DNA from: Calothrix anomala FACHB-343
GTDB lineage: Bacteria > Cyanobacteriota > Cyanobacteriia > Cyanobacteriales > Nostocaceae
Direction: 5' to 3'
Assembly: GCF_014696435.1 (NCBI RefSeq)
Contig: NZ_JACJQG010000093.1
Location: forward strand, 1 to 32,882
Length of the DNA stretch: 32,882 nt
Part shown: piece after piece, positions 7,267-29,000 of the stretch
Numbering within the stretch: the stretch's first letter is position 1
Layout of the letters: the number at the start of each line of letters is the position of its first letter
The notes under the pieces: model-generated
Databases searched by the model: none
What the model saw: only the letters and a program-made list of their open reading frames with translations
What the model was told of the DNA's origin: nothing
Position numbers and translations under genes: made by a program

Positions 7267-8610
7267 TCAATTAGGGAACTGTGCTAGCAGGTCTTTGCCG
7301 TCAATAATGGTACTAGTAAAGACAAACTTGCGATTAGCTTGGTAGCGTGGATCTGACTTAATCATCGCCATAAAATCGCGATGTCCCTGTCTTGTCCTAC
7401 CTACTTGACAACCAGCACTCCATCTGCCTACGTCAGATTTAGGGTTATCACCTCCCCAATGTTGGTTAATGCCAAACATCCCTGAGTCCATAGAGTCGCC
7501 TTGATCGCGTCTGCCATTGCGATTGGCATCACGATGAACGGTGACTTGTCCGCCAGTTTGCACCAGCGCTTCATGTCCGCCACCTGGGGTATGAATTCCT
7601 ACTTGCCATGCACTGTATTGCCCAAAGGCGATAATTGCTGCACCTTTAGGGTTCATGGGCTTGTAGGTATAGTACTTACCTGGATTGGTTGTGGCTTCCC
7701 AACAGCCAATCATTTTCGGCTTACCATCCTGAAACTCAATCACCGTGCGGAGGTCGTTCCAGACATTCAGGGTGTTGTCATTGAGCGTTCCGTCTGGATT
7801 CATGCCTTCGATGTAGATAATATTCTTTTGTCCAGGTTGTTTGTCAATTCTGTAGCCTTTTTTCTCACAATAGGCAACGATTTTCTCGGCTAGAGTTTTC
7901 GGCTTAACCGTGACTGTGGCGATTTTGGAACCATCAATCTGCACATGTCCGCCATAGATAAACCAAATGCGCCGACTCAGAATTGGAGTTTTGAGCATGA
8001 CTCGCAGATGTTGCGCATCTGCGATCGCGACTTCGATAATTTCCAACTCTCTCCCTGCTTTGACGGTGGTTTTTTCCGATGCTTCCAGCTTGTTAGAGGG
8101 CAATGAACAGCTTTTCAACACCGAGTCAGAAGTCACCTTAAGATTAAACTGCCCCTGCTCAACCTGGCCATCTTTGAGTCCGAGCGCTTGCAGAAAGTAC
8201 AAAATTGCCGCACAACCAGGAACTGAATCAATAGTTTTGGTGTGATTAGTCCCAGCCCAAACAAACGGCGTAATTCCCTGGTTATCTTTACCCTGAAAAT
8301 CGTTGCACGCATCAAAGGCGAGTAAGCGAGTAGAGAGCTTTGTTGGTATCTGTTCGCCCTGAATCTTACTCAGCTTGCCCGTGATTTGCTCTAAAAATTG
8401 CTGATAATCCGGAAAATCTGCCTTAGCATGTAAGATTCCTGCCCAATACCAAGGTAAATTGGGATAATACCACTCAAGTTTTTCGTACAAACCGCGATCG
8501 TAATACAGCTTCTCAGCTATTCTTTCTAACTCTGGCAAGAGATTTGATTGCACCTTGCAGCTTTGCCACAGTTCTGTATATTTTTCTTCTATATGTACAA
8601 TATTAGCCAT
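7267..8610 (-). CDS. Multidomain cell-wall protein: lysozyme-like N-terminus, SH3-like segment, L,D-transpeptidase-like C-terminus
   Basis: 447 residues, no signal peptide. Residues about 25-145 (NLPWYWAGILHAKADF, TPFVWAGTNH, CAAILYFLQALG) resemble the lysozyme-like domain of cyanobacterial peptidoglycan-binding proteins, although the usual acidic residue after the IH motif is not obvious, so it may be catalytically dead. Residues about 155-226 (LKVTSDSVLKSC to WFIYGGHVQI) match an SH3-like spacer found in such proteins. The C-terminal part contains H384 in INQHWGG and S398-x-G-C401 in GRWSAGCQV, the order of His and SxGC residues seen in YkuD-type L,D-transpeptidases. D361-N363-N365-D369 (DANRNGRRD) looks like a calcium loop. 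It is the last gene of the four-gene minus-strand cassette and 119 bases from its neighbour. Domain assignments come from motif memory and are moderately sure. Confidence 0.6.
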   Translation of the reverse strand: MANIVHIEEKYTELWQSCKVQSNLLPELERIAEKLYYDRGLYEKLEWYYPNLPWYWAGILHAKADFPDYQQFLEQITGKLSKIQGEQIPTKLSTRLLAFDACNDFQGKDNQGITPFVWAGTNHTKTIDSVPGCAAILYFLQALGLKDGQVEQGQFNLKVTSDSVLKSCSLPSNKLEASEKTTVKAGRELEIIEVAIADAQHLRVMLKTPILSRRIWFIYGGHVQIDGSKIATVTVKPKTLAEKIVAYCEKKGYRIDKQPGQKNIIYIEGMNPDGTLNDNTLNVWNDLRTVIEFQDGKPKMIGCWEATTNPGKYYTYKPMNPKGAAIIAFGQYSAWQVGIHTPGGGHEALVQTGGQVTVHRDANRNGRRDQGDSMDSGMFGINQHWGGDNPKSDVGRWSAGCQVGRTRQGHRDFMAMIKSDPRYQANRKFVFTSTIIDGKDLLAQFPN

Positions 8611-8729
8611 TTTTGTGATAAATGCTTGGTAACTAAAACGGCTGGTAGCTTTATTTTTTAATCATCGCCAATAAATCATCGCCAACAGCTAGAACAGACA
8701 ACACTAGCATCCACTTTTAAACAGTCCAG

Positions 8730-9065
8730 CTATGCTTCGTTAGAAGTATAACTTGCCGTGTTCAAGCTCCAGTTTGAATTTCTTGGCTGTGGATTGTTCA
8801 GCTCTTCATTATGGACTTCTGGATATCTATTATCTTGATTTTTCACCTGTTCTATACGTTGGCAGAGGCTATAAATAATAATCGGATCGCGGATGATTTC
8901 AGTGAGAATGCGGGCTTCATTAAAGTCTCTAGCATCGCTTCTTAAGTCACGCAATACCAAATCGATTAACTCCGGACTCATTTCTATTTCCAAAGAAATG
9001 TTAATCGCAATATTTGGCCCCGTTTTGTCGATATCGATGGAATACTTTTTACTGTTACGAATCAT
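8730..9065 (-). CDS. Small hypothetical protein of the SLOG/SLATT-lysozyme cassette
   Basis: 111 residues of no family I recognise. Residues 8-35 are beta-like (SIDIDKTGPNIAINISLEI), residues 38-80 are helical and charged (ELIDLVLRDLRSDARDFNEARILTEIIRD), and the last 30 residues are polar, N/S-rich and probably disordered. There is no signal peptide or membrane helix, so it should be cytoplasmic. AGGA lies about 10 bases upstream of the ATG. Its position between two cell-wall-enzyme genes in the same orientation suggests an adaptor, inhibitor or immunity-type role, but this is only positional inference. Confidence 0.6.
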   Translation of the reverse strand: MIRNSKKYSIDIDKTGPNIAINISLEIEMSPELIDLVLRDLRSDARDFNEARILTEIIRDPIIIYSLCQRIEQVKNQDNRYPEVHNEELNNPQPRNSNWSLNTASYTSNEA

Positions 9066-9113
9066 AATTGTGTCCTATAAAATTTTTTCGTGAATGGCTG
9101 ACTTAAAAATCGC

Positions 9114-9141
9114 GTTAACTGTTGACTGTTGACTGTTGACT
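9114..9141. repeat. Heptameric tandem repeat (GTTGACT)n
   Basis: There are three perfect GTTGACT units (9121-9141) preceded by one degenerate unit, GTTAACT. The same heptamer family recurs at 14775-14802. It is an STRR-type repeat between two genes of the minus-strand cassette. The following 9200-9245 stretch is a pyrimidine-rich CCTTGTC-type tract. Confidence 0.7.
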
Positions 9142-9256
9142 CTTAATAAATGATTTTCATGTTTGGTTGTGAAATTTTCTCGTAGATAGCTGACATGAAA
9201 GATTAATTTCTCCCTTGTCCTCCTTGTCCCCCCTTCCCTTATCTCCCGTCGCCTGC

Positions 9257-9299
9257 AAACAAAAACCCCTCAAGCCTTAAATATTAGACGATTAGGGGT
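9257..9299 (-). terminator. Probable terminator of the SLATT-lysozyme gene
   Basis: On the minus strand CCCCT at the gene end pairs with AGGGG 23 bases later, and this is followed by TTTTTGTTT. The 5' arm begins at the stop codon. The stem is short with a large loop, so termination may be partial, which would let the two downstream genes share the transcript at a lower level. Confidence 0.45.
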
Positions 9300-10704
9300 A
9301 GGGTTTTAAGAATAGATCGGCTTCAGCTTCTCTTCGTCTCCTCAATCCTTGCTCAACATTGGTTCCAGGATTGCGATACTTAATCAAAGTTTCGCGCATA
9401 TTCGGCCAATCACGATTATTTAAGACTCTGGTTATGGAATCAAAGCCAGAAGCGCCGTAGAATCTACTCCCCAAGTTATAACCAAAGCTGAGTAATGCCC
9501 CTTGTTGGTGAGGGTTGAGTTCACCCCAGCAAGGTATTCTCATTAAATCGGGTAAGTAACTTGTTTCCAACTGATAAATTAATAACTCGTCAGCTTCTTG
9601 TTGAGAAATAGTGTCTCCAATATACCAGGGGCTTCCGTCACGTTTTCTAGTCGAACCCCAGCCAATCGTGATTGGTAACCCTTTAGTTCTAGGATCGGGG
9701 TATGCTTTAAGATCGCAACCTTCAAACTTTTTAATTAGCTCAACTCCACACATCGGTAGCTTTGTGGAGACTTGTTTAGTTTCGACGCTCTGGTTTGGTG
9801 CGGTACCGTTTCTGCTGATAGGATTGTTCTTAACCTTAGCCAGAATCTCGTTAGTACTGAGATACTGTACTGAATCAGCGTTGAGGCTGGTGCTATCACG
9901 ATCCTCTTCGTCATCTTGCCAGAAATTGACCGCAGAATTTAAGTCAGCTTGCCCATCTGAGTCCCCTTGGGCTACTTGCTCTGCTGATTGTTCGTTATTG
10001 CTTTGTTGTGGGGCAGAACGCTCTTGTTCCCACTGCTGTTTTTCAGCTTGAATGCGCTGTTTCTCGGCTTCTAGTTCCTTAAGTTGGGCTTCATATTGTG
10101 CCCGTAACTGCAACTGCTCGTTGAGATTTTCTAAAGCAAGTTCTGCATTCTTTGAGACTGTTTCTTGTGTCTGCTTACTACTTCCTTCTTGTCGTTCTGT
10201 TAGCTGGGAAATAAAGCCCTGTACGTCTTGCTGAATATACTGTTCGACTCGTTCGGCAAAAATGGTGTAGGCCTCGGAGTGGTTATTATATTGACGATAG
10301 GGGCCAGCCATTTGGAAAAACTGCCACCCTTCAATTTTCAAGCCTTCAGCAGTATTACGATAGCTGCGATACTTCTCACCATGACCAAAAAACTCTTCAA
10401 CCGCCGCAGAAACGGCTACTACCTGACTTAAACCAAAAGCCGACCAGCCAACAATTTCTTGCCACTTTTGGTTCCCCTTCTCAAAACCAATGAGTGCAGG
10501 GACAATTACCCCACCAATGATAGTAATCATTCTGAGGTTATGATGGGCATTGCGTTCTTTAGTGGCTCGCCCCTCTAACCACATAACTTGATCGAGCCAG
10601 CGATTTTTCAGAAAGTCTTTGCGCAAGTCTGACAAGTCAAGTCGGTCAATTAGTCCATAGAATGTCTGTTTAAGGTATTGACTATAGTCGTTTTTCTTAG
10701 CCAT
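9292..10704 (-). CDS. SLATT/DUF4231 two-helix membrane domain fused to a GH24 lysozyme
   Basis: 470 residues. The N-terminal 175 residues resemble DUF4231/SLATT: a conserved helical region (LKNRWLDQVMWLEGRAT), two hydrophobic helices (about 58-73, 84-100), then YRNTAEGLKIEGWQFF. Residues about 185-240 are a heptad-rich coiled coil (AQLKELEAEKQRIQAEKQQW), followed by an acidic, disordered linker. From residue 319 it is a T4/P21-type lysozyme (GH24) with E328 (KKFEG), D337 (YPDP) and T346 (PITIGWG) at the E-D-T catalytic positions, and a normal C-terminus (LRRRREAEADLF). SLATT domains are known as membrane effectors paired with SLOG sensors, and a SLOG gene lies 118 bases upstream. There is no signal peptide, so with two helices both ends should face the same side. 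The domain identities are fairly sure; the fusion's role in lysis is inference. Confidence 0.8.
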   Translation of the reverse strand: MAKKNDYSQYLKQTFYGLIDRLDLSDLRKDFLKNRWLDQVMWLEGRATKERNAHHNLRMITIIGGVIVPALIGFEKGNQKWQEIVGWSAFGLSQVVAVSAAVEEFFGHGEKYRSYRNTAEGLKIEGWQFFQMAGPYRQYNNHSEAYTIFAERVEQYIQQDVQGFISQLTERQEGSSKQTQETVSKNAELALENLNEQLQLRAQYEAQLKELEAEKQRIQAEKQQWEQERSAPQQSNNEQSAEQVAQGDSDGQADLNSAVNFWQDDEEDRDSTSLNADSVQYLSTNEILAKVKNNPISRNGTAPNQSVETKQVSTKLPMCGVELIKKFEGCDLKAYPDPRTKGLPITIGWGSTRKRDGSPWYIGDTISQQEADELLIYQLETSYLPDLMRIPCWGELNPHQQGALLSFGYNLGSRFYGASGFDSITRVLNNRDWPNMRETLIKYRNPGTNVEQGLRRRREAEADLFLKPYP

Positions 10705-10822
10705 AGTTTTAAATTTCTCAAAAGCTTCTAGCTATAGTTAGATAAAAATAATGGTTACTCGTTCTTACAGGAAAAATTCCCGATATGGACTTTTTTTGCC
10801 GTTTTTGTCTCCTCAAGGTAAA

Positions 10823-11560
10823 TTAAGTAGACAGTAAATGTTTAATTGTCTGGGTTAACTCCTCCACTTCTGCTTCTAAATCAATTGTTTGTAACTTTCC
10901 AGATGCAGCTAATTTTTCAGCACGTTCATCTGTGGCTTCTCCATGTAATGCAGAGACAAGTTTATCGGCTGTTCTACCGCTACCTGCTATTACCATCACC
11001 AAGCGTCCGGCGACGACACTATTAGCAGCATCCAAAAAGGTAATTTCGCCACCATTAATCAGCACTGTCACCGAGGGTGCGCCACCAGCTAGTATGGTTG
11101 CTACTTTGACGATCCAAGGAGACTCATCGCCCCAATTATTACCGGGAACTAGAACAAAATGAGTATGATGTGGCTCTAGGGGTGCAGCATCATCAGCAAC
11201 TTCAGTTTGATTTGGTAAAATCACCTTTCCTATAGGTGCTACGCCAATCAGAGGAAATGTAGACTTGGTTTGCTGACGAGCATTACCTATCAGTTGCATC
11301 ACTCCTGCATCTGTACCGCCATCAACAACATAGGCTCCTAAACTCTCGGCTATTGGGGCTAATACTTCCACAAACAAGCTTTGGATACGCCCAAAATCTG
11401 CTGCGCTAATCTGACTTGCACCACCGACGATCACTAAAATAGGACGCGAACCAATTAGCCCCATTTGCTCAAGCACATTAGATAATTCTGTAGATTCAGA
11501 GACTCTAGCGGCTGTTGCTGTTTGCCCTTGGTCGAAACTCAGGCTAAGAAATTTTTCCAT
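10823..11560 (-). CDS. SLOG-family (LSDAT/TRPM-type) nucleotide-ligand sensor
   Basis: 245 residues from the ATG at 11560. An in-frame TTG at 11605 is possible but adds residues without family character. It is a Rossmann-like SLOG protein of the LSDAT type related to the TRPM N-terminal region. The glycine motifs are ILVIVGGASQIS (G46-G47-A48), YVVDGGTDAGVMQLIG (G81-M88) and LIGVAP, followed by HTHFVLVPGNNWGDESPWIV and VIAGSGRTAD (about 201-210), the expected ligand-contact loops. SLOG domains bind nucleotide or NAD-derived ligands. This copy is intracellular with no membrane segment. As first gene of the minus-strand cassette it is the likely trigger for the SLATT-lysozyme protein downstream. 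Confidence 0.8.
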   Translation of the reverse strand: MEKFLSLSFDQGQTATAARVSESTELSNVLEQMGLIGSRPILVIVGGASQISAADFGRIQSLFVEVLAPIAESLGAYVVDGGTDAGVMQLIGNARQQTKSTFPLIGVAPIGKVILPNQTEVADDAAPLEPHHTHFVLVPGNNWGDESPWIVKVATILAGGAPSVTVLINGGEITFLDAANSVVAGRLVMVIAGSGRTADKLVSALHGEATDERAEKLAASGKLQTIDLEAEVEELTQTIKHLLST

Positions 11561-12172
11561 GACTTGGAATTTGAAGTGTAGAAAGTCACGCTCATTATTC
11601 CACAAGAATTTGCTTTGTCGTCATAAATCTTACATAAACACATCCTACAATGGGTAGAGATTATGTATTACTTTATCAGAAATTTATGGTATCTTTACTT
11701 AAGCCACATGAATTTATACTTTTTTTCCATGAAAAACCTGTAGAGTACTAGAAAATATACTGTAATGGTATTCTGTTATAGTTAAAACTCAAAACCATAA
11801 ATCTTCGTATTTTTAACGTACTCAGCACTCGCACTCTTCATCGGTTTATTTGCTCAGATGGTTTGAGAATCGCTCAACTCAGTCCAGACTGACTAAAAAA
11901 GCAGATGAAAACTTTTTCAAAAGATGACGGGAAACTAACTCCGCAACTGGGGTGAGAGAGATAGACACCCCGTAGCTATTATTTGTCATTTGTCGGTATT
12001 AAGTAGCAAAAACAACTTGCCACTGATAGTTCATCACGGGTGGGGATGAGTCTAACTGTCCTGCTATGTGCAGTTCAGGATAGCTTTCCATGTAATTATT
12101 TACACATCTAATAATTTATTTCGGTCTTAGAATCGATTATTTTGTTTGTATATAAAATCACAAATTATTGAG
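11561..12172. other. Divergent intergenic region with several inverted repeats
   Basis: This 610-base gap separates the minus-strand SLOG cassette from the plus-strand secretion operon, so promoters for both must lie here. I see TCAGTC-CA-GACTGA (11879-11892), TGAAAA-CT-TTTTCA (11906-11919), GGGGTG-N11-CACCCC (11948-11970) and CTGC-TATGT-GCAG (12061-12073). The clustering in 200 bases suggests either a folded leader RNA for the exoprotein gene or a set of regulator sites. There is no open frame and no recognised riboswitch. Confidence 0.4.
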
Positions 12173-14734
12173 ATGAGTAAAAGTAATTGTTTGGATGGAT
12201 TCAAACTTTTGTCTGTAGTAACAATAGAGACTTTAGCTCAATTTTTATTGATACCTATAATTACCAGCAATCCCACTCTGGCACAAATCGTGCCGGATGG
12301 GACATTGGGTAATGAAAGCTCCCGCGTGACTGGTAATGTCACAATTAAAGGTAGTGCTGCTGATTTGATAGAAGGTGGCGCACTTAGGGGAAGCAGTCTG
12401 TTTCACAGCTTTACAGAATTTAATATCAACGAAGGGAAACGAGCTTATTTTGGTAACCCGACAGGAGTTGAAAACATTTTCAGTCGTGTGACGGGTAATA
12501 ACGTTTCTAATATTTTGGGAACATTGGGCGTAAATGGTAGCGCCAATCTGTTTTTACTCAATCCTAATGGTATTTTGTTTGGGAAAAATGCCCAGTTAGA
12601 TATTCAAGGTTCGTTTTTAGCAACTACAGCCAACAGTTTTCAGTTTCCTGATGGTAGTGAGTTTAGTGCAACGAATCCCCAAGCAGCGCCACTGTTAACA
12701 ATGAGTGTTCCTGTGGGGGTACAGTATGGTTCTCAGCCAACGGCGAGTATTAGTAATGAGGGAAGTTTAGAAACTGGAAAGGATTTGACTCTGAGTGCAG
12801 GAAATTTGGATTTGCAGGGACAACTCCAGGCTGGTGGTAATTTAACTTTACAAGCGGAGGACACTTTAGAAATCGAAGAGAGTGAGAGCGATCCTTTCAT
12901 TGCGGCTGCTGGTGGAAAATTGGTGGTGCAGGGTAATCAAAAAATTGATATTTCTGCTTTAAATAACCCCAATAGTGGCTTTTTCTCTGGTGGGGATATG
13001 GTGTTGCGCAGTAGTAATGCGGTTGGTGGCGATGCACATTACTGGGCTGGGGGTAATTTTACCATCGAACAGTTAGATGGCAATTTGGGCGATCTATTTA
13101 GTCCTAACGATCCGGTGATTCGTGCTAGTGGGGATGTGAGTTTTGATAGTTATAAAGGTGCTTCTTTGCACATTTTGGCGGGTGGAAGTGTAACTATTTT
13201 GGGTAATGTGAAAATCACGGGTGTAGACACAAGCAATTTTCTTAAAGAAACCGTCACCCTGTCGGATAGAAAAACAAATATAGATATAGATGGTAGTAAT
13301 GAACCAACACTAGACATTCGAGCAGGGGTAAGTTCTAATACTATTAGGTCTCCAAAATTTGAACCAGATTTTCTCTCTGGATTCTATGCTCAAAATCCTA
13401 CAATAATTGACACTCAAATAAATGCTGATATCACTATTAACGGTGATATTTATAATACTTCAGGTGCTGAGTTTAACAGTGGACAAATATTTATAACTAA
13501 TCAGTATCAGCCCAATAATGAATTGGCAGGTAATATCACAACAGGAAAAATTTGGACTTATGGTGATGTCACCATCGATTCGCGGGGTGATATTGAAATT
13601 CGAGATGAAATTGATACTAGTCCTCAAGATAATAATAAGATTGGTGGTAATGTCACGATTCAAGCTGTTGATGATATCCATGTTGATAAGATAAAAGCTA
13701 CTAGTGTTAATGATGATGCTAATGATAGTAATAAAAAATTTAATACTATCAAGATTAACTCTACCGGAGGTTCAGTTTATTTAGATGGTTCTATAATCAG
13801 TAATAACAATACTGGTTCTGGTTATGCAGGAGATATTATTATTAATGCCAGTAACGAAATTTCTCTTCTTAATAATAGTGAAATATCTAGTCAAGGAAAT
13901 TATGGAAGGATTTTTATTAATGCCAAGACTCTAACTTTGAATAACTCATCGATTACTACAAAGACTGAAAAGGGAGTTGCCGGTGATATTAACATCACGG
14001 TACAAGACTTCTTGCTACTGCGCGATCGCAGCAACATTATCGCAACAGGTGTTGAAGGTGATGGCGGCAATATCAAGATTAATGAGAATGCTAAAGCTGG
14101 ATTTGTGATCGCAGTACCATCAGAAGATAGCGATATTCTTGCCAATGGTGTGGGTGGAAATGGCGGCAAGATTAAGATTAGCGCTAACCGCATTATAGGT
14201 TTTAAAAACTCTCAAAATCGGGGAAAGTTGGATCTGAATAACATTGATCAAAACCGTATTAGCGATATCAGTGCCAGTTCTGATATTGGGCAAGATGGGG
14301 ATGTATCGCTTGATACTCTCAGCATCGACCCTAGTCAGGGGCTTGTAGCACTGCCTACTGATTTAACAGATGCCTCTGGATTAATTGCCCAAGGCTGTGG
14401 CGCGGGCGGTGGTGGTAGTGTGGCTAAGGGGCAGAGTGAATTTGTGATTACTGGGCGAGGTGGACTACCTCCTAGTCCTGATGATGCTTTAAGTGCGGGG
14501 GCTATGTCGGCTAGTTGGGTTAATCGTGATACTAATACATCAACTAATAATAATGAAAAAGATTCTGTGAAAGCGGCGAATGTGATGGAATTTTCATCCG
14601 GTGGGACTAAGCCTTTAGTGGAAGCAGTAGGTATGGTACGGAATAGCAATGGTGACATTGTGTTAACGGCTAAACCGACAACGGCTACTCAGCTACAGTC
14701 TCGGTTATCTAGCGCATTCTGTAGTGTTAAGTAA
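12173..14734 (+). CDS. Two-partner secretion exoprotein (filamentous haemagglutinin type)
   Basis: 853 residues from the ATG at 12173 (an in-frame TTG at 12146 would add nine). A signal segment ends near NPTLAQ, then the TPS secretion domain follows: IVPDGTLGNESSRV, a GGALRGSSLFHSFTEFNINEG motif, and ANLFLLNPNGILFGKNAQLDIQGSFLATTA with the conserved NPNGI. The middle is a long right-handed beta-helix of S/T/N/G-rich repeats. The C-terminus has the CGAGGGG and FVITGRGGLPPSPDD motifs usual in cyanobacterial members. It is exported by Sec and threaded through the outer membrane by the TpsB protein encoded next (14966). It is shorter than adhesins of pathogens but normal for cyanobacteria. Its ligand is unknown. 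Confidence 0.9.
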   Translation: MSKSNCLDGFKLLSVVTIETLAQFLLIPIITSNPTLAQIVPDGTLGNESSRVTGNVTIKGSAADLIEGGALRGSSLFHSFTEFNINEGKRAYFGNPTGVENIFSRVTGNNVSNILGTLGVNGSANLFLLNPNGILFGKNAQLDIQGSFLATTANSFQFPDGSEFSATNPQAAPLLTMSVPVGVQYGSQPTASISNEGSLETGKDLTLSAGNLDLQGQLQAGGNLTLQAEDTLEIEESESDPFIAAAGGKLVVQGNQKIDISALNNPNSGFFSGGDMVLRSSNAVGGDAHYWAGGNFTIEQLDGNLGDLFSPNDPVIRASGDVSFDSYKGASLHILAGGSVTILGNVKITGVDTSNFLKETVTLSDRKTNIDIDGSNEPTLDIRAGVSSNTIRSPKFEPDFLSGFYAQNPTIIDTQINADITINGDIYNTSGAEFNSGQIFITNQYQPNNELAGNITTGKIWTYGDVTIDSRGDIEIRDEIDTSPQDNNKIGGNVTIQAVDDIHVDKIKATSVNDDANDSNKKFNTIKINSTGGSVYLDGSIISNNNTGSGYAGDIIINASNEISLLNNSEISSQGNYGRIFINAKTLTLNNSSITTKTEKGVAGDINITVQDFLLLRDRSNIIATGVEGDGGNIKINENAKAGFVIAVPSEDSDILANGVGGNGGKIKISANRIIGFKNSQNRGKLDLNNIDQNRISDISASSDIGQDGDVSLDTLSIDPSQGLVALPTDLTDASGLIAQGCGAGGGGSVAKGQSEFVITGRGGLPPSPDDALSAGAMSASWVNRDTNTSTNNNEKDSVKAANVMEFSSGGTKPLVEAVGMVRNSNGDIVLTAKPTTATQLQSRLSSAFCSVK

Positions 14735-14768
14735 GCTATTCTGCTGTTAAGTTGCACAATCCATCGAG

Positions 14769-14807
14769 AGGGCTGTTGACAGTTGACCGTTGACAGTTAA
14801 CAGCCCT
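14769..14807. repeat. Hairpin enclosing GTTGACN heptamer repeats
   Basis: A perfect 9-bp stem, AGGGCTGTT/AACAGCCCT, encloses four heptamers (GTTGACA, GTTGACC, GTTGACA, GTTAACA), the same unit as at 9114-9141. It lies 35 bases after the exoprotein stop. It has no T-run, so it may attenuate or stabilise mRNA between the exoprotein and its transporter rather than fully terminate. Confidence 0.6.
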
Positions 14808-14965
14808 GATTAGTATTTGTGCAAATTTAGCTGAAAGTAGTTTGCTTAAATTTCGGGATTTTTCAGCAGGTTTTTTGCTGGTGGGAAATTTAACAGTATA
14901 AATTTAACAATTCATCGGGTGCTGACATTGCAATGTTTGTTTTACCTATATAGAGAATTTTTATT

Positions 14966-16738
14966 ATGAATCGTTTATCGGGCTGGCGATCGCGCAGTCT
15001 ATATTCTCATAATTCTAGATACAAGTCTTCTGTGTCTTGGCGCAAGATGTTGATGCTGATGACAGCAATGATTCCTAGCTTGCAGGTAGAACGTTTAGCG
15101 GCGCAAGTCCCACCGGTGGAAGTTAAACCGCCTTCAGGACAACAGCAGCCAAAATTAGAACCGCTACCACCTTTACCACCACCAGAACAACTCTTACCCA
15201 ATTTGCCGGGTACTATCACTCAACCAGAATTTAATCCGGAAGCACTACCTGAGACGTTAACAGTCGAAAAATTTGAGTTTGTCGGAAATACGGTGTTTAG
15301 TACGGAAGAATTGGCGAAGGTGGCTGCACCATATACTAAACGCTCAATTACTTTTGTTCAATTAGTAGAGTTACGCTCTCAGTTAACAAAATTATATGTA
15401 GATAAAGGTTATGTCACATCGGGAGTAATCATCCCTCCCCAAACTATCAAGGCTGGGGTGGTGGTGATGCAGGTGGTAGAAGGAAGTTTAGAAAAGATTA
15501 ATGTTACAGGTACGCGCAGCCTCAATCCTAGTTATGTGCGCGATCGCTTGGCGATTGCTGCGGGTAAACCATTCTCACGCGATCGCCTTTTAGAAGGATT
15601 GCAACTATTACAACTCGATCCCCTGATCCAAAGTGTTTCTGCGGATTTACAAGCTGGGATTAGTCCGGGAACGAATGTCTTAGAGGTGAAGGTTAAAGAA
15701 GCCAATTCTTTGAGTGGCGATATTGTCTTAGATAACGGACGCAGTCCCAGTGTGGGTAGTTTTCGGCGGCGAGTTAATCTTCATGAAGGTAACTTTTGGG
15801 GATTGGGAGATAGTTTAAACATCGGTTATACCAATACCGATGGAAGTAACGGCTTTGATATTAGCTATAGTCTGCCACTTAACCCGCGCAACGGTAAGCT
15901 AACTTTTTCCTATGGAAATACTAATAGTAATGTGATAGAAAAGCCTTTCAATGTATTAGATATTACTTCTAAATCTAGTTACTATGAGTTAAATTTCCGG
16001 CAACCAATTGTCCAAACTCCTAGCCAAGAATTTGCTTTAGGACTTACCGCTAGTCACCAGACGAGTCAAACCTTTTTAGGTGTTGATGGTATTGGTGGGT
16101 TTCCTCTGGCGACTGGGGCGGATGATGAAGGACGTACAAGGGTTTCGGCGATCCGATTTGTCCAAGAATGGACTCAGCGCAGTAGTCAACAAGTCATCGC
16201 CGCGCGATCGCAATTTAGCTTAGGATTAGGTATTTTAGACGCAACTATCAACAAAGATGCACCAGATAGTCGCTTTTTTAGCTGGCGCGGACAAGGACAA
16301 TGGTTGCGTTTGTTAGCGCCTGATACTTTGTTTTTGCTGCAAGCTGATATGCAATTAGCAGATCGCGAATTATTGGGATTAGAACAATTTGGGATTGGTG
16401 GACAAACAAGTGTCCGGGGATATCGTCAAGATCAGTTGTTAACAGATAATGGCATTCAAGCAACGGCGGAGATTCGCTTACCAATTTTGCGAGTTCCCCA
16501 ACTGCAAGGAGTTTTACAACTCACACCTTTTGTTGATGTTGGTACTGGCTGGAATAATGACGGAGCAAATCCTAAGTCCAACACTTTAGTAAGTACAGGT
16601 ATTGGATTGCTTTGGCATCAAGGTAATAACTTAACGGCGCGTTTAGATTGGGGAATTCCACTCACATCAGTTGATTCTAAGGGGGACACATGGCAAGAAA
16701 ATGGTTTGTATTTCTCTCTCATTTACAAACCTTTTTGA
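14966..16738 (+). CDS. ShlB/FhaC/HecB-type outer-membrane TPS transporter (TpsB)
   Basis: 590 residues. A signal peptide spans about residues 25-48 (KMLMLMTAMIPSLQ to LAAQ), then a proline-rich linker typical of TpsB proteins (PPLPPPEQLLPNLPG). POTRA-type repeats follow (LTVEKFEFVGNTVFSTEEL; then LEKINVTGTRSLNPSYVRDRL), and then a 16-strand beta-barrel region starting near VKEANSLSGDIVLDNG. The conserved loop-6 motif VRGY (TSVRGYRQD) is present, and the protein ends in F (LIYKPF), as outer-membrane barrels do. Its partner is the haemagglutinin-type exoprotein immediately upstream. Position, strand and the 231-base spacing are consistent with an operon. Confidence 0.92.
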   Translation: MNRLSGWRSRSLYSHNSRYKSSVSWRKMLMLMTAMIPSLQVERLAAQVPPVEVKPPSGQQQPKLEPLPPLPPPEQLLPNLPGTITQPEFNPEALPETLTVEKFEFVGNTVFSTEELAKVAAPYTKRSITFVQLVELRSQLTKLYVDKGYVTSGVIIPPQTIKAGVVVMQVVEGSLEKINVTGTRSLNPSYVRDRLAIAAGKPFSRDRLLEGLQLLQLDPLIQSVSADLQAGISPGTNVLEVKVKEANSLSGDIVLDNGRSPSVGSFRRRVNLHEGNFWGLGDSLNIGYTNTDGSNGFDISYSLPLNPRNGKLTFSYGNTNSNVIEKPFNVLDITSKSSYYELNFRQPIVQTPSQEFALGLTASHQTSQTFLGVDGIGGFPLATGADDEGRTRVSAIRFVQEWTQRSSQQVIAARSQFSLGLGILDATINKDAPDSRFFSWRGQGQWLRLLAPDTLFLLQADMQLADRELLGLEQFGIGGQTSVRGYRQDQLLTDNGIQATAEIRLPILRVPQLQGVLQLTPFVDVGTGWNNDGANPKSNTLVSTGIGLLWHQGNNLTARLDWGIPLTSVDSKGDTWQENGLYFSLIYKPF

Positions 16739-16881
16739 GGTGGAAAAAGAGGGAATTACAGAAAGTCGGTGAGAAAACCAACTTCTTGATGGGACGGGAT
16801 GAACCGTCGCCCACCGACTTGAAGCAACTGGCGTCATGGGGCATTGGTGATTTCTTCCCCATGCCCCATGCCCTATTCGCT
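16739..16881. repeat. Repeat-rich spacer before the CHAT gene
   Basis: A spacer carrying the heptamer-like GGGGCATTGG and CCCCATGCCCCATGCCC, which are mutually complementary and match the tract at 32697. AAGTCGGTGAGAAAACCAA and CACCGACTT also pair. The reading frame of the CHAT gene stays open through this spacer back to 16690, but the encoded sequence looks like translated repeat and not protein. Confidence 0.5.
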
Positions 16882-19518
16882 ATGCCCAAATTTAATTCGT
16901 TGTACAAACAACGAATTAAATTTGGCTATGTTATTTTGGCTGGTTTAACTGCTTTATTATGTATATTTACCTCGCCTGTTTTCGCCCGCGATACATCAAA
17001 TCAAGGGTTTAACTCACCCCAAATTGCTATTCTTCCTCAGGAACAAGAAGCGAAAAATTTATATACAGCCGGACGATTTAGCGAAGCTGTGACGGTGTTG
17101 CAGCAAGTTTTGCAGGTTTATCAAGGTAATAATGATACCATTGGACAGGCGGTTGTTCTGAGTAATTTGGCTTTGAATTTTCACCAATTAGGACAGATAC
17201 CAAAAGCAACCGAAGCCATTGAAAATGCGATCGCATTAATCCAAAACACTCCTGATTCTCCCCAAAGTTTAACAGTTTGGGCGCAAGCTGTAGATGTCAA
17301 AGGTGGTTTACAACTAGCACAAGGTAAGGCGGAAGCTGCATTGTCATCCTGGGAGCAAGCTGCATCATTTTACCAAAAGCTGCAAGATAGCAATAAAGTT
17401 ACCCTCGTCACTATTAAGCAAGCACAAGCTTTACAAACTTTAGGACTGTATCAACGGACAATTTCCACGCTGGAGAAGTTAAAAACAACTCTGCAAAATC
17501 AACCAGATTCTTTAATTAAAGCGGCTAATTTGCGCAGTTTAGGTGATGCTCTTTTGGTTGCAGGGGATTTAAAAAAGGCGGATGAGAATTTACAAGCTAG
17601 TCTGAAAATTGCTCAACAACTACAATCGCCAGAAAACGTTGCTGCTGCTTATTTGAGCTTAGGTAATCTGGCTCGCGCTCAAAGTAAGAATAAAGAAAAA
17701 AACAATCAGCAAGCCCTGGGTTTTTACCAACAAGCAGAGGTAATGGCGAATACCTCAACTATAAAAGCTCAAGCTCAAATCAACCGCCTGCGCTTGCTGG
17801 TAAAAATGGAAAAATTGCCAGAAGCACAAGCACTATACCCACAAATCAAAAGTCAAATTTCTAACCTACCCGTGGGTCGTCCGGCGATTTATGCCCAGGT
17901 ACAATTTGCTCAGAGTCTCTTAGAATTAAGGCTGAAATCCTCTAGCCCTAACCCAGAAACAATTGGTCAAATTCTGGCTGTGGCTCGTCAGCAGGCGGAA
18001 CAATTGCAAGATGTACGGGCGGAATCTTTTGTTTTAGGTAATCTGGGACACCTCTATGAAATGACTCAACAATGGGCGATCGCGCAAGATTTGACTCGCA
18101 AAGCACTGAATTTATCTCAGTCAATTCAAGCACAAGATATCGCCTATCGTTGGCAATGGCAGCTAGGGCGGATTCTCTGTCAAGGACAAAAGCAATGCGA
18201 CAACCAAGAAAAATTTCCAGATGCCATCAATGCCTACACCGAAGCATTTAATAGTTTACAAGGTATCCGGGGTGACTTGATTGCCAGTAATGCAGATGTA
18301 CAATTTTCCTTTCGGGAAAGTGTCGAGCCTCTATATCGCCGCTTAGTAGATTTGCTGCTACAATCCCCCACCTCTAGTCAAAGCAACCTCCAACAAGCTC
18401 GCAATGTCTTAGAAGCGCTGCAAGTTGCCAAATTGCAAAACTTTATGCAACAAGCTTGTCAAGATACTAAATTACAACTTGACAAGGTAATCGACACTAA
18501 AGACCAAAAAGCGGCGGTGATCTATTCAATTATTTTAGATGACCGCTTAGAGGTGATTGTTAAGTTTCCCAATAATCAAGATTTATATCACTCTCCAGCT
18601 GTCAAACTATCCAAAAAGGAAATTGAGACGACTTTACAACAATTCTATAACAATCTTAAGGACATAGGTAATTATGAAGACGTACAAGAGGATGGTCAAA
18701 AAGTCTACAGATGGCTAATTCAACCAATACAAACAAAATTAGAGCAAGGCAAAATTAAAACTTTGATTTTTGTTTTGGATGGGTTTCTGCGCAAAATTCC
18801 GATGGCAAGTTTATATGATGGCAAACAGTATCTCATGGAAAAATACGCCGTCGCTTTAGTTTTAGGGCTACAAGTGCGCGATCCTATGCCTTTACAAAGA
18901 AGAGAAATTAAGGTATTAGCAGCTAGCCTGACTGAACCACCAAAGGAAGTTAAGGGCTTTTCGCGATTAGAAAATGTAAAAAAGGAAATAGCAGAAATTA
19001 AGAAGACGGGGGTAGATGTTAGTACTATTGCTGAAGCACAATTTACTAATAAAGCCTTCAACACAAAGCTCAATACTTCTAACTTTGATATCGTCCATCT
19101 AGCAACTCACGGTTATTTCGGTGCTGACAGAGAAAACACATTTGTGTTAACAGCCGACGGAAAAATGAAGTTAGATGAATTCGATCGGTTGTTTCAAAGA
19201 CAAGGACAAAAACGCACCAAAGCAATTGAAATATTATTTCTCAGTGCTTGTCAAACAGCAGCAGGTAACGATCAAGCAGTCATGGGGATTGCAGGAACTA
19301 CAGTTCAAGCCGGAGCTAGTAGTGCGATCGCTAGTTTGTGGGATCTGGACGATCAATCCAGCGTCTTGTTCGCCAAGGCTTTTTATCAAAACTTAGGAAA
19401 GCCTGGTGTCAGCCGAGCCGAAGCCCTACGCCTAGCACAACAGGCTCTATTTAAAAATCCTGACTACGATCATCCATCCTTTTGGGCACCCTATGTTTTA
19501 GTAGGTAGCTGGCTTTGA
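16882..19518 (+). CDS. TPR-CHAT protein (caspase-like protease), exported
   Basis: 878 residues from the ATG at 16882. I chose this start because a good signal peptide (KFGYVILAGLTALLCIF to SPVFA) begins 12 residues later. The longer frame from 16690 overlaps the previous gene and is repeat-derived. Residues about 55-450 are TPR-like helical repeats (NLALNFHQLGQIPKATEAIENAI and similar). The C-terminal CHAT domain carries H743 in HLATHG and C790 in LSACQTA, the caspase-type dyad, then GTTVQAGASSAIASLWDLDD and HPSFWAPYVLVGSW. CHAT proteins are clan CD peptidases. Its location right after a TPS pair suggests processing or quality control of the secreted exoprotein, but the target is unknown. 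Confidence 0.88.
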   Translation: MPKFNSLYKQRIKFGYVILAGLTALLCIFTSPVFARDTSNQGFNSPQIAILPQEQEAKNLYTAGRFSEAVTVLQQVLQVYQGNNDTIGQAVVLSNLALNFHQLGQIPKATEAIENAIALIQNTPDSPQSLTVWAQAVDVKGGLQLAQGKAEAALSSWEQAASFYQKLQDSNKVTLVTIKQAQALQTLGLYQRTISTLEKLKTTLQNQPDSLIKAANLRSLGDALLVAGDLKKADENLQASLKIAQQLQSPENVAAAYLSLGNLARAQSKNKEKNNQQALGFYQQAEVMANTSTIKAQAQINRLRLLVKMEKLPEAQALYPQIKSQISNLPVGRPAIYAQVQFAQSLLELRLKSSSPNPETIGQILAVARQQAEQLQDVRAESFVLGNLGHLYEMTQQWAIAQDLTRKALNLSQSIQAQDIAYRWQWQLGRILCQGQKQCDNQEKFPDAINAYTEAFNSLQGIRGDLIASNADVQFSFRESVEPLYRRLVDLLLQSPTSSQSNLQQARNVLEALQVAKLQNFMQQACQDTKLQLDKVIDTKDQKAAVIYSIILDDRLEVIVKFPNNQDLYHSPAVKLSKKEIETTLQQFYNNLKDIGNYEDVQEDGQKVYRWLIQPIQTKLEQGKIKTLIFVLDGFLRKIPMASLYDGKQYLMEKYAVALVLGLQVRDPMPLQRREIKVLAASLTEPPKEVKGFSRLENVKKEIAEIKKTGVDVSTIAEAQFTNKAFNTKLNTSNFDIVHLATHGYFGADRENTFVLTADGKMKLDEFDRLFQRQGQKRTKAIEILFLSACQTAAGNDQAVMGIAGTTVQAGASSAIASLWDLDDQSSVLFAKAFYQNLGKPGVSRAEALRLAQQALFKNPDYDHPSFWAPYVLVGSWL

Positions 19519-25105: not shown

Positions 25106-25266
25106 GGGAGCATCCCAAATGTGCAAAAACGCCCTCACCCTATAAGGGTGGGGCTAGAAATACGAAGCCTGCCTTCGCAGGCTAAAAGTTTGATAGCCTG
25201 CGAAGGCAGGCTTTGTTGGGATAGCAATACCCTTCTAGGGTATTGCGTCAAAATTGGGATGCTCCC
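25106..25266. mobile_element. 161-bp MITE with 8-bp target duplication, inserted at the DUF928 stop codon
   Basis: The first 13 bases GGGAGCATCCCAA are reverse-complemented at the right end. TAAGGTTT flanks both sides (25098-25105 and 25267-25274), a textbook 8-bp target-site duplication. Inside are three hairpins in a row: GCCCTCACCCT/AAGGGTGGGGC; two perfect 18-base arms AGCCTGCCTTCGCAGGCT around AAAAGTTTGAT; and GCAATACCCT-TCT-AGGGTATTGC. A second copy starts at 32776. It has no open frame and would need a transposase in trans. Confidence 0.85.
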
Positions 25267-25994
25267 TAAGGTTTGAGTTCAGATATCGGTTCTGAAGCAG
25301 CCTTTTCCAGGCTATATTGCGAGAGAATTTTCACCCATTCTTGTGGATGAAGATTGCGATACTCTGCAAGTTCGCTGATGGCTTCAGCCCAGATGTTATT
25401 TTCAAAATAAGGAAAGTATTTATCTTGAGGTTTTGTTTGCTTCAGACGCTCTACTAAGGTGGAATCAGGTTCAACCCGTTTAATCCAACCATCAACAAAG
25501 ATATTGCTTGGTGAACCTTGGTCATTTACACAAGTAATGCTGAAATACCAGTGATAGCGTTGACCAACAACGAGTGGTTTTTCGGTAGAGGGTAGAGAAA
25601 GTTTCGCAATACCTTTTTTCTCAGGTAAAGATAGTTTCAATGGTTTTGATAAAACAGACTTTTTCTCTTCATTTAAAAGCCTAAATGTTGCGGGTAAAGA
25701 TTGAGAAGACTTAGCAAAGGGTAAATTAAACCAAAAGTCAGGATACTCTTTAGTAGTCAATATCTCATTGTTTTTGGGCACTAACGCCATAAGGTTATCG
25801 TTCTCTAGTTCCGAGCATTGCGAACGCTTTCCCCCTCCATTCTGTCGTCCGGAAGGACTGGCCTCGCTGTTGATATCAGCCCTAGCTACTGTTGATGAGA
25901 GAGATATGACAGACAGCAAGCTACCAGAAAATACAGTTGTGATGGTGCAGATGGTAATTAGCTGTCGCCATAACTTAGATTTAAGCTCGATCAT
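25266..25994 (-). CDS. DUF928 protein, exported, downstream of the TIR-CHASE2 gene
   Basis: 242 residues. A signal peptide spans about residues 10-38 (LITICTITTVFSGSLLSVIS to TVARA). The rest matches DUF928: DNLMALVPKNNEILTTKEYPDFWFNLP, a beta-rich middle, then RYHWYFSITCVNDQGSPSNIFVDGWIKRVEP, and a helical end (WAEAISELAEYRNLHPQEWVKIL). The function of DUF928 is not known to me. It is often found beside CHASE2 proteins in cyanobacteria, and here it starts 21 bases after the TIR-CHASE2 stop, so the two form an operon. An extracytoplasmic partner of the CHASE2 sensor is a reasonable inference. The stop TAG is formed jointly by the last base of the MITE and the first two bases of its target duplication. 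Confidence 0.85.
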   Translation of the reverse strand: MIELKSKLWRQLITICTITTVFSGSLLSVISLSSTVARADINSEASPSGRQNGGGKRSQCSELENDNLMALVPKNNEILTTKEYPDFWFNLPFAKSSQSLPATFRLLNEEKKSVLSKPLKLSLPEKKGIAKLSLPSTEKPLVVGQRYHWYFSITCVNDQGSPSNIFVDGWIKRVEPDSTLVERLKQTKPQDKYFPYFENNIWAEAISELAEYRNLHPQEWVKILSQYSLEKAASEPISELKP

Positions 25995-26015: not shown

Positions 26016-29000
26016 TTAAACTTTGCGTAATTGGTAAGTTAAATAAACAACTCCAGCCCCTGTAACAATTAATGCGATCGCAGGCTGGATGATAGGCACC
26101 CAAGCGCTTTGAAAAACTAGAATGAGATAGCCAGCAGTGTAGAGACAGCCAAGAGAGGCGATCGCACCGACGACTAAATACAGTGTTTTTGGCGATCGCC
26201 AAAAAACGATCCCGCCGACTAAAGACCAGCCAAATATCCACAACATTTCATATTCAACAGACCACCACCAAATCAAGGGCCGATTGTCTAAAACGGCACT
26301 GAGTATTTGGCTAATCATTTGCCCGTGCAAGGTGATACCGGGCATATCTCCCTGTGGTGTATTCCAGTAGTCTGATTGTCTAGCGCCTCTGTCAGTAATT
26401 CCAATCAGTACAATCCGATTTCTAATTTGCTCGGCAGGAACCTTATTGTTCATCACATCTAAAATACTGACTCTAGGGGCAAATTTATTGGGATCGCCCT
26501 TATGGGTACGGTATTTGAGCATCGTTTGATACCCCGCCAGCCGCGCGTCCGCTATTTGGTAGCCACCACCATTTCCCACCAGACGGGGAATCTGGGTTTT
26601 GCCAAACTGCATATTCCGCACATATCTTTTAGTCTTTAAATCTAAGGGAGAGAGATATTGCTGATTCTCGGCCTCTAAATAGCGACGAGCAATTACTAAA
26701 TTGAAGGATTCCCTTGAGTTGCAATAGTCGGGGTCTGGTTTTTGCATCAAAAGACTGCGCCGCACATACCGACCACCATTGATATCTTCATCAACTAAGT
26801 CATTAAACCCTACTTGTTTTAATGGTAATTCTGGCGGTTGCTTATAGCCGGGAATTAAGACATCCCGCTCATTGTCATGATAACTATGTTTACAGATGGC
26901 AATCAGATTTTGAGTTTGCCTGAGACGCTGGGCTAAATTACCTTTGGCAGGAAAATTGCGGATAAAGTCTAAGCCAATGACTCTGGGTTTCGCCTCTGAG
27001 AGGGTTTTGAATAAATCATCTAAGGCTGGATCGGCTATTGAGCCTTGTCCGCCCTGATACTTGGGTATTTCGTTCAATTTGTCAATACTTTCTGGATCGA
27101 CATCTACCATTAAAAATCGCTGATCTTGAGTTTCATCAGGACGCGATCGCATTAGCTGATCGTATGCTGCTAATTCTAATGGTTCGGTGACAGCAAAATG
27201 TCGCCCGATAAACATCAACATTGTCACAGCTAAACTAGTCAGCAATACGGTGCGAGCCTTAATTTTGCGATGGGGTAGGGCGCGACTAGCATCAAGATAT
27301 TCTAACTGTAGAGGGGTGGGGTGTGGCTCTTTGGTTTGGGATTCGTTTAACCAGGTAACAGATGCAGCCAAATCCTTACCCCGCAACAAGAAAGCGTCAT
27401 CTCGTCCGTGTTGTTCCCATTCTTTGGCTTTGAGCAATAAACGAGTGTGCGATCGCAGGTATTCTGGATCTGTATCTAGGGTTCTGGTGAGTTCGCCAAA
27501 GTTGGTGAGAAAGTCGCCTCCATGCTTACGAAAATCAATCCACTGGACTTTTGCTAACCCCGGATGAAGTTTACTCGGCTCGACTTCGCGACATAAGACG
27601 GTAACAATCCGCTTATTCAGTTGCATTGCATATTCCACTTCATCCGCACAGTAAGGCGAATTAATTGAATTAGGAGAAATAATAAATAAGAAGTTGTTAG
27701 AAGTTTCAATTCCTCGATAAATTTCCTGCTGAAAGTCACTTCCCGAAGCTATACTTTCTTGATCGAACCAAGTCGTCTTATTTTGAATTTGTAATGTATC
27801 GTTCAGCTTCCGGGTAAATTCCGAATCAGCACGGGAGTAGGAAATAAATACGTCAATGGCTGCATTTGGCGGTTGCTTGAGGCTTTCCGCGATAAATTCT
27901 GCTTGTAAAGGTATCGGTAAATGCTGTGTTCTTTGTTTTGCTACCTTCAACCATGCTTCCGCATTACGGAGATTGTAGCCGCGTAATAAGATACTGGGAT
28001 TGTGCTTTTGGCGTTCCCACTTTAACGCCTTGGCAAGTAAAATTTTATGCTGTTCGTAGTAAATTGCATCTTGACGCAGCACATTAATTAACTTCGCCGC
28101 ATCAGTACGATATTTGTCTGCTTCTAGATGATCTGCAAAGTTGATAAATTGCAAATTACGTAATTCTGGCGGAACTTTTTCTATGTCTAATTCCTCTACC
28201 AGAATCGGAATAATCCGCTTGTTGAGAGACAAAGCATGAGATATTTCTTGCTGACAATATTCTGATCGTAAAGATGCTAGCGACATCAAATAAACTAAGT
28301 TATCTGCTTCTTCAATCCCTCGGTAAATTGCTTCTACAAAATCCGCTCCCGTTTTAATATCTGTTTTGTTTGTCCAAACAGTAAAAGCTTCTCTTCTTAA
28401 AGTTGCGGCAATTTTCTCCATAAAGTCCCTTTCTTTTTCTGAATAAGAAAGGAACACTTGAGTCATCAGGTTGTTGGCATTTTTGATACTTTCACAAATA
28501 AAGTCACAGTGTATATTTGTGGGTTCACATGGTGGTTGCTCGTCTTTAAATTTAATTTTTAACCAGTTTTCCGCCTCTACTCTTTTTTCACCAATTAATA
28601 AATAAGATGACTGTTTTTGATTGCGATTCCACTCTAGTGCTTTATCTAATAAATATGTGTGATCCTGCACATATTTTTTGTGACGCGCGAATATTTCTAA
28701 TAATCCGGCAAAAGATTTTTCAAAGTCATCTATACCTTCGCGGAGATATACCCAATTAATTTTACCGATTGCCGGATGCATGTTAGGATAACTAGAGTGT
28801 AATCCCTTTGCTTTATAGGGTTCCCACTCACTCGCAGGGCGTTGGGGATTGCGTTTTTGCCAGGTTTCTTGAGTAATTTCCTCGACATGCAACACCGGAA
28901 TAATGCGTTTATTGCAGCGAATAGCTAACTCAATTTCTTTGCGACAATAAGGTGAGTTAATCGAATGGGGTGCAATAATAAACAGAAAATTGTCTGACTT

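Follow-up and report, generated by a model that had tools for sequence, protein, structure and literature searches.

The stretch of DNA analysed here (the window) comprises positions 1-32,882 of the forward strand of contig NZ_JACJQG010000093.1 from Calothrix anomala FACHB-343 (GCF_014696435.1). We propose that four of its genes act as the executing part of a self-lysis system driven by a TIR protein, a reading that we consider evenly poised between right and wrong; the purpose of the lysis would probably be abortive infection. An earlier note, made from the sequence alone, had placed at 7267-11560 four minus-strand genes encoding an LSDAT-type SLOG protein, a DUF4231/SLATT membrane protein carrying a GH24 lysozyme, a 111-residue protein and a protein with lysozyme-like and L,D-transpeptidase-like regions, and all four are confirmed, the last as a 447-residue wall enzyme. 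As a functional unit, however, this cassette proved too small, as it leaves out the likely trigger, a protein with three TIR domains and a CHASE2 domain encoded elsewhere in the window, whose strong association with LSDAT and DUF4231 genes argues that it belongs to the same system.

Association of the TIR protein with LSDAT and SLATT genes

The TIR protein of the window matches TIR_2 over three stretches (1.4e-85), CHASE2 (9.8e-56) and ThsB_TIR (6.4e-16), and each of its three TIR domains contains an S-x-Y-C-x-x-E stretch, which we take to hold the catalytic glutamate of TIR NADases. Its subfamily, defined as matches to the first TIR domain of the window with E<=1e-40, occurs in 12 of the 386 cyanobacterial genomes that make up our phylum sample. 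LSDAT is present in 11 of these genomes, DUF4231 in 11, and one or the other in all 12, where about 0.9 would be expected. Fisher tests, which ignore shared ancestry among genomes, gave p=6.5e-13 for the subfamily with LSDAT and p=4.5e-15 for the subfamily with LSDAT or DUF4231. The association is also one of gene position: among the 29 genomes with LSDAT, 10 of the 47 distinct TIR genes (E<=1e-5, counted by hand, frame by frame) are found no farther than 20 kb from LSDAT, where 0.37 would be expected. LSDAT and the TIR subfamily are both present in 10/10 genomes with a GH24-type cassette, and nine of them have a TIR match no more than about 20 kb from LSDAT, the one in the genome of locus L108 being weaker (E 8.7e-23); the exception is L107, whose LSDAT sits on a 6.5-kb contig.

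The sensor tails of these TIR proteins vary, with CHASE2 in the window, L105 and L111 and WD40 in some others. CHASE2 is an extracellular sensor domain, and with it reading an extracellular cue the same signalling core could serve filaments in programmed death of their cells or in remodelling the envelope, as in stress, fragmentation or differentiation, in line with the many hosts that are filamentous cyanobacteria by name. We regard this purpose as rather unlikely: the tails vary between CHASE2 and WD40, the patchy spread of the genes (LSDAT in 29/386 genomes, the TIR subfamily in 12/386) ill fits a core developmental role, loci also occur in Microcystis, which is unicellular, and TIR and DUF4231 genes are found together on a viral contig too. 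On that contig (L181, 2547-4788), a single-TIR gene overlaps the DUF4231 gene, which in turn is followed by a gene for a peptidoglycan-binding and YkuD-type protein, 45% identical to that of the window over 203 positions; the TIR protein also shows a borderline FHA domain. L181 is possibly a minimal three-gene version of the system. In the Microseira locus L115 (5816-10801), the TIR, WD40 and DUF4231 frames look broken and the lysozyme part is missing.

Conservation of the four-gene cassette

The genes for the SLATT-GH24 fusion, the 111-residue protein and the 447-residue protein are adjacent on one strand in all ten GH24-type loci, the window counted, and LSDAT is present on the fetched DNA in eight of them. 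Whole-genome searches found LSDAT in the remaining two genomes as well: in L101 it lies 13 kb from SLATT-GH24, on the same contig by coordinates and with a TIR gene in between, and in L108 it lies away from the cassette, 1.7 kb from a TIR match. LSDAT has the reverse orientation in L063/L104 (Sphaerospermopsis), L106 and L107, and the TIR, LSDAT, SLATT-GH24, 111-residue and 447-residue genes are all on one strand in L102, L103 and L105. Coordinates of the window features are collected in Table 1.

Table 1. Features of the window considered in the text
Feature	Position	Strand	Size or residues	Assignment
LSDAT-type SLOG protein	10826-11560	-	245 amino acids from ATG	Putative nucleotide sensor; Pfam LSDAT_prok
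SLATT-GH24 fusion protein	9292-10704	-	470 amino acids	SLATT (DUF4231) two-transmembrane domain, linker and GH24 lysozyme
DUF4231 domain of the fusion	10276-10593	-		Pfam
GH24 lysozyme domain of the fusion	about 9322-9732	-	residues 325-461	Pfam
111-residue protein	8730-9065	-	111 amino acids	Function not assigned; in 10/10 GH24-type loci
447-residue protein	7267-8610	-	447 amino acids	Candidate wall enzyme; degenerate lysozyme-like N-terminal part, SH3b-like middle, YkuD-fold C-terminal part
Triple-TIR and CHASE2 protein	26016-29168	-	1050 amino acids	Putative sensor and maker of a NAD-derived signal
DUF928 protein	25266-25994	-		Beside the TIR gene; Pfam DUF928 2.4e-50; membership of the system uncertain

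The SLATT part of the fusion protein was recovered by the NCBIfam SLATT_1 model (100.8 bits for a cut-off of 41) and has two hydrophobic segments, so that both ends of this domain are probably cytoplasmic; the linker to the lysozyme looks coiled-coil-like by eye. The GH24 part matches the Phage_lysozyme model and lysozymes and endolysins of the PDB (best 4.5e-12), and its E-D-T site is invariant in 10/10 GH24-type loci. A frame artefact as the origin of the fusion is ruled out by a single intact open reading frame in all ten. When the window is compared with L100 (Calothrix brevissima), LSDAT, SLATT, the 111-residue and the 447-residue proteins show 98-100% identity but the GH24 domain only 89%; the lysozyme part may have been replaced or converted.

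Cyanophage lysins share up to 59.6% identity with the GH24 part, and phages and viral contigs contain the kinds of parts from which the 447-residue protein is built, as a decayed or domesticated phage lysis module with no signalling would have it. Such an origin of the whole cassette is hardly tenable, given that none of 50,697 phage records covers 80% of the SLATT-GH24 fusion, that pattern scans of IMG/VR returned a single contig with the window's SLATT domain and none with LSDAT, and that the GH24 site and the gene order are kept throughout the ten loci. The phage-record coverage and the IMG/VR scans likewise led us to reject a prophage lysis region as the identity of these genes.

The LSDAT protein and its association with SLATT

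The SLOG protein was recovered by the Pfam LSDAT_prok model (1.4e-71; 240.3 bits for a cut-off of 25.4). Among GH24-type loci, the expectations of the earlier note on gene neighbourhood and on the lysozyme site were borne out, as was the recovery of SLOG and DUF4231 by curated models. With phmmer, LSDAT aligns with the N-terminal regions of TRPM2 and TRPM8 (TRPM2 chanzyme, E 1.9e-8), and TRPM channels are its closest solved relatives by sequence. Residues H132 and H134 and the G-S-G..A-D motif are unchanged in 19/19 relatives, as is the acidic character of the last position of G-G-x-x-x-x-x-[DE] (17 D, 2 E). The TRPM2 chanzyme has a threonine at this position in the phmmer alignment, and we take the position to be that of the catalytic glutamate of LOG enzymes (PGGxGTxxE). 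Because of this retained acid, LSDAT may be an enzyme and do more than sense a ligand, which counts against our proposal. It could then make or destroy a nucleotide signal as LOG phosphoribohydrolases do, with another part sensing and the activity of LSDAT keeping SLATT-GH24 silent. This seems to us quite unlikely, as the fusion of LSDAT to a membrane domain, described below, fits a gating sensor, and as the equivalent region of TRPM2, one of its nearest solved relatives, is reported to form an ADP-ribose site (PMC13143021). We therefore keep to LSDAT as a putative sensor of the signal.

Beyond the window, LSDAT occurs in 29 of the 386 genomes and window-type DUF4231 in at least 26 (genomes listed by hand, with up to four candidates scored per genome); 25 genomes have both (Fisher p=4.5e-34, ignoring shared ancestry). 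A SLATT gene lies within 3 kb of 22 of the 30 LSDAT genes; 13 of these pairs are on the same strand with a gap of at most 31 bp, and three of the 22 SLATT partners belong to a double DUF4231-SLATT_1 type, as verified with Pfam for one. LSDAT, DUF4231 and SLATT_1 even form a single polypeptide on plasmids of Hymenobacter tibetensis and Chlorohelix, which belong to two other phyla, and the Hymenobacter fusion gene starts 47 bp behind a gene for a GH108 muramidase. The SLOG-SLATT-lysis reading of the earlier note therefore stands in its association part, given the 25 shared genomes, the 22/30 linkage, the fusions and the joining of SLATT to several wall hydrolases (see below). On the Hymenobacter plasmid (L179, 4318-7878), the fusion gene stands between the GH108 gene and a gene whose PG_binding_3 match stays below the cut-off, all three on one strand. 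At L078 (7993-12543), LSDAT is followed by a patatin phospholipase gene and then a TIR gene, and no SLATT gene was found on the fetched 16 kb; the patatin could be an alternative membrane-attacking partner of LSDAT. DUF4231 is reported to be enriched in anti-phage defence islands (PMC10799925).

Exchange of wall hydrolases on SLATT

The fusion of SLATT to a wall hydrolase was followed in a survey of 79 loci, drawn from the best 80 of 141 relatives with one genome per species and biased to the window's clade. It overlaps the phylum sample: by coordinates, L104 and L063/G328 share one contig, and contigs of that sample recur among the remaining loci from L100 to L178 in some cases. Neighbour counts cover the fetched DNA around each locus, and many contigs end close by. 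The loci hold 82 DUF4231 genes, of which 25 are fused to a hydrolase-like domain: 13 GH19, 9 GH24, one C39, one C39 with GH19 and one CHAP-like. GH19 and C39 labels rest on Pfam matches of representatives (one GH19 under the cut-off) plus BLAST to these representatives, and the CHAP-like label was given by eye, Pfam returning no family for that part. LSDAT lies within 6 kb of 54 of the 82 genes and a TIR gene within 10 kb of 29. In a DUF4231 tree of 87 rows, made by a quick method, the hydrolase labels need 11 changes, compared with 27.8 for shuffled labels; the C39 and CHAP types group together (full SH-aLRT support), and a second clade unites all 10 GH24 types with 9 of the 13 GH19 types. 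We infer from these sequence relationships that different wall hydrolases were joined to the window's SLATT family more than once. The fused GH24 lysozyme of the earlier note is one option among several hydrolases.

In seven loci (L109, L111-L114, L116 and L153), an M15 peptidase gene adjoins DUF4231 on the opposite strand, its product having an N-terminal part in common with the 447-residue protein. At L139 (9024-16127) and L146 (9088-16040), LSDAT and DUF4231 are followed, a few kb downstream, by separate C39-GH19 and C39 genes.

The 447-residue and 111-residue proteins

The 447-residue protein has an SH3b-like domain (residues about 148-228) and a C-terminal part (residues about 236-447) that was assigned to the YkuD fold. 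H384 and S398-A-G-C401 are kept in 11/11 sequences with this domain; in 13 more diverse rows, the H and A-G-C are present in 13/13 and the S in 12/13. Together, the His and S-x-G-C presumably correspond to the catalytic motif of YkuD-fold L,D-transpeptidases. The Pfam YkuD model matched 1/16 A2 members of this C-terminal domain, weakly (E=2.2). As for its distribution, the full-length protein was matched in only 2 of the 386 genomes, the same two that have the GH24 type, and parts of it, mostly the C-terminal domain, in 26 more. The earlier note had left open whether this protein helps in wall damage or acts as a brake; a YkuD-fold domain of its own with conserved residues, next to an SH3b-like domain, speaks for the first and disfavours the second, and a second wall enzyme is the more likely role to judge from its sequence. 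The YkuD-type domain is also found at seven viral-contig loci (L182-L188), one of them the L181 contig, and on L184 it is joined to a lysozyme-like N-terminal part.

The gene for the 111-residue protein was detected in 2 of the 386 genomes, both with a GH24-type cassette, and did not turn up on the fetched DNA of the GH19 and C39 loci. At the limits used, the protein had no match among the Pfam, PADLOC, NCBIfam and PHROG families, and its strongest hydrophobic stretch is weak (1.11). Between LSDAT and the TIR gene, the plus strand of the window (12146-19518) carries genes for a TPS exoprotein, a ShlB transporter and a CHAT-TPR protein, which may be part of a larger island, and a TPS-like gene occurs in 17/79 loci. 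With the tie of the 111-residue gene to the GH24 type, this arrangement could suggest an inter-bacterial weapon, the hydrolases being sent to neighbouring cells through TPS/ShlB as exporter and the 111-residue protein acting as immunity factor. We find this very improbable, because the lysozyme lies behind a two-transmembrane domain with no export signal visible by eye, 62/79 loci have no TPS-like match, and the 111-residue protein has the weak hydrophobicity and the restricted distribution just given. Behind the TIR gene of the window comes that of the DUF928 protein, and a gene of similar size follows TIR in L101, L102, L103 and L105.

A proposed pathway to lysis

The domains, the intact GH24 site, the gene sets, their co-occurrence, the fusions and the exchange of hydrolases are observed, and from them we infer a pathway: the chemistry of the signal, its binding, the pore, the access of the enzymes to the wall, lysis and a benefit against phage. 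The TIR protein, with its swappable sensor tail, would detect stress, probably phage infection, and turn NAD+ into an ADP-ribose-type signal. LSDAT, as a relative of the TRPM2 N-terminal region, would bind this signal and act on its SLATT partner, which would oligomerise and permeabilise the membrane. The SLATT-borne GH24 and the YkuD-fold companion, neither with a visible signal peptide, could then reach and cut the peptidoglycan, so that the cell would lyse ahead of phage maturation. With both SLATT ends probably on the cytoplasmic side, a folded lysozyme would have to go through the pore or be exposed by it, and may reach the wall by analogy with phage endolysins and their holins. In its full form, with a TIR messenger opening a split prokaryotic counterpart of TRPM2 made of LSDAT and SLATT, and swappable phage-type hydrolases lysing the infected cell, the proposal is put forward tentatively and is somewhat doubtful.

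Several observations weigh against the TIR-driven self-lysis that we favour. A close member of the TIR subfamily is lacking in 18 of the 29 LSDAT genomes, and in 5 of the 29 even a threshold of 1e-5 gave no TIR match; a window-type TIR protein therefore does not supply the signal in every case. In the window itself, a distance of 14.5 kb and the TPS/ShlB/CHAT block separate the TIR gene from LSDAT. No SLATT gene lies within 3 kb of 8 of the 30 LSDAT genes. Moreover, 57 of the 82 DUF4231 genes have no fused hydrolase, including L109, which ends at the contig end, and L115, which looks truncated, both scored as having none. For five of the 57, a hydrolase is encoded separately within 6 kb, and for the other 52 none of the hydrolases searched for was found within 6 kb on the fetched DNA. 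As most SLATT genes thus lack a hydrolase, wall attack would be an add-on to a simpler LSDAT-SLATT core. A narrow check for the C39 cysteine motif matched 1/7 proteins, a lysozyme tethered on the cytoplasmic side still has a membrane to cross, and PADLOC models gave no match.

Comparison with known systems

The system resembles Thoeris in combining a TIR enzyme with a SLOG-fold or membrane effector, and the window TIR protein matches ThsB_TIR. It differs in that its SLOG is of the LSDAT/TRPM family and its effector is SLATT with wall hydrolases; Pfam found neither a SIR2 nor a macro domain, as expected of ThsA, in the four genes, so the cassette is not Thoeris. By analogy, our best reading is a system that would work like Thoeris with a holin-endolysin output. 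A close precedent is TM-macro ThsA, which is reported to cluster its transmembrane domains on binding ADPR or IAD (PMC11204291). As in TRPM2, an N-terminal SLOG (LSDAT) region would be coupled to a membrane pore, here a predicted one; unlike in TRPM2, the sensor is usually a protein separate from the membrane part, which is a two-helix SLATT and no TRP channel. With phage holin-endolysin systems the cassette shares a membrane-active part and hydrolases without visible export signal, as well as GH24, GH19, C39, M15 and YkuD-type modules, several with lysin matches, but here a single protein combines the membrane part with the lysin, is linked to SLOG and TIR genes and does not belong to a phage.

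SLATT has been predicted as a nucleotide-responsive pore (PMC7159879, PMC9503650), described in TIR-SLATT neighbourhoods of phages (PMC9503650) and associated with antiviral reverse transcriptases (PMC12483538, PMC9122126). The window shows the features on which such effector predictions are based, a two-transmembrane SLATT domain in genomic association with nucleotide-signal domains, TIR included, as in the SLOG-SLATT conflict systems of Burroughs et al. (2015), known here through partial accounts (PMC7159879, PMC9503650, PMC13143021). Within those parts of the citing accounts, no SLATT-hydrolase fusion, window-type TIR partner or exchange of GH24, GH19 and C39 appears. Peptidoglycan attack was proposed for EAD1-linked lysozyme or papain-like effectors (PMC7159879), where EAD1 is the adaptor in place of SLATT with LSDAT. 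In the open-access literature searched, we found no description of SLATT-hydrolase fusions or of the TIR-LSDAT-SLATT-hydrolase set. Relative to published SLATT predictions, the elements not found described are thus the wall hydrolases on SLATT and this gene set.

If the proposal holds, bacterial TIR immune signalling can end in controlled lysis of the wall by a membrane protein with a built-in lysin, and lysis would be a further TIR-SLOG output beside NAD depletion and membrane clustering. The LSDAT-SLATT pair would be a testable membrane device of prokaryotes, gated by nucleotides and with kinship to the TRPM2 sensor, and the exchange of hydrolases would offer a simple rule to find more such systems. 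The gene set is small enough for rebuilding in laboratory strains of cyanobacteria or in E. coli.

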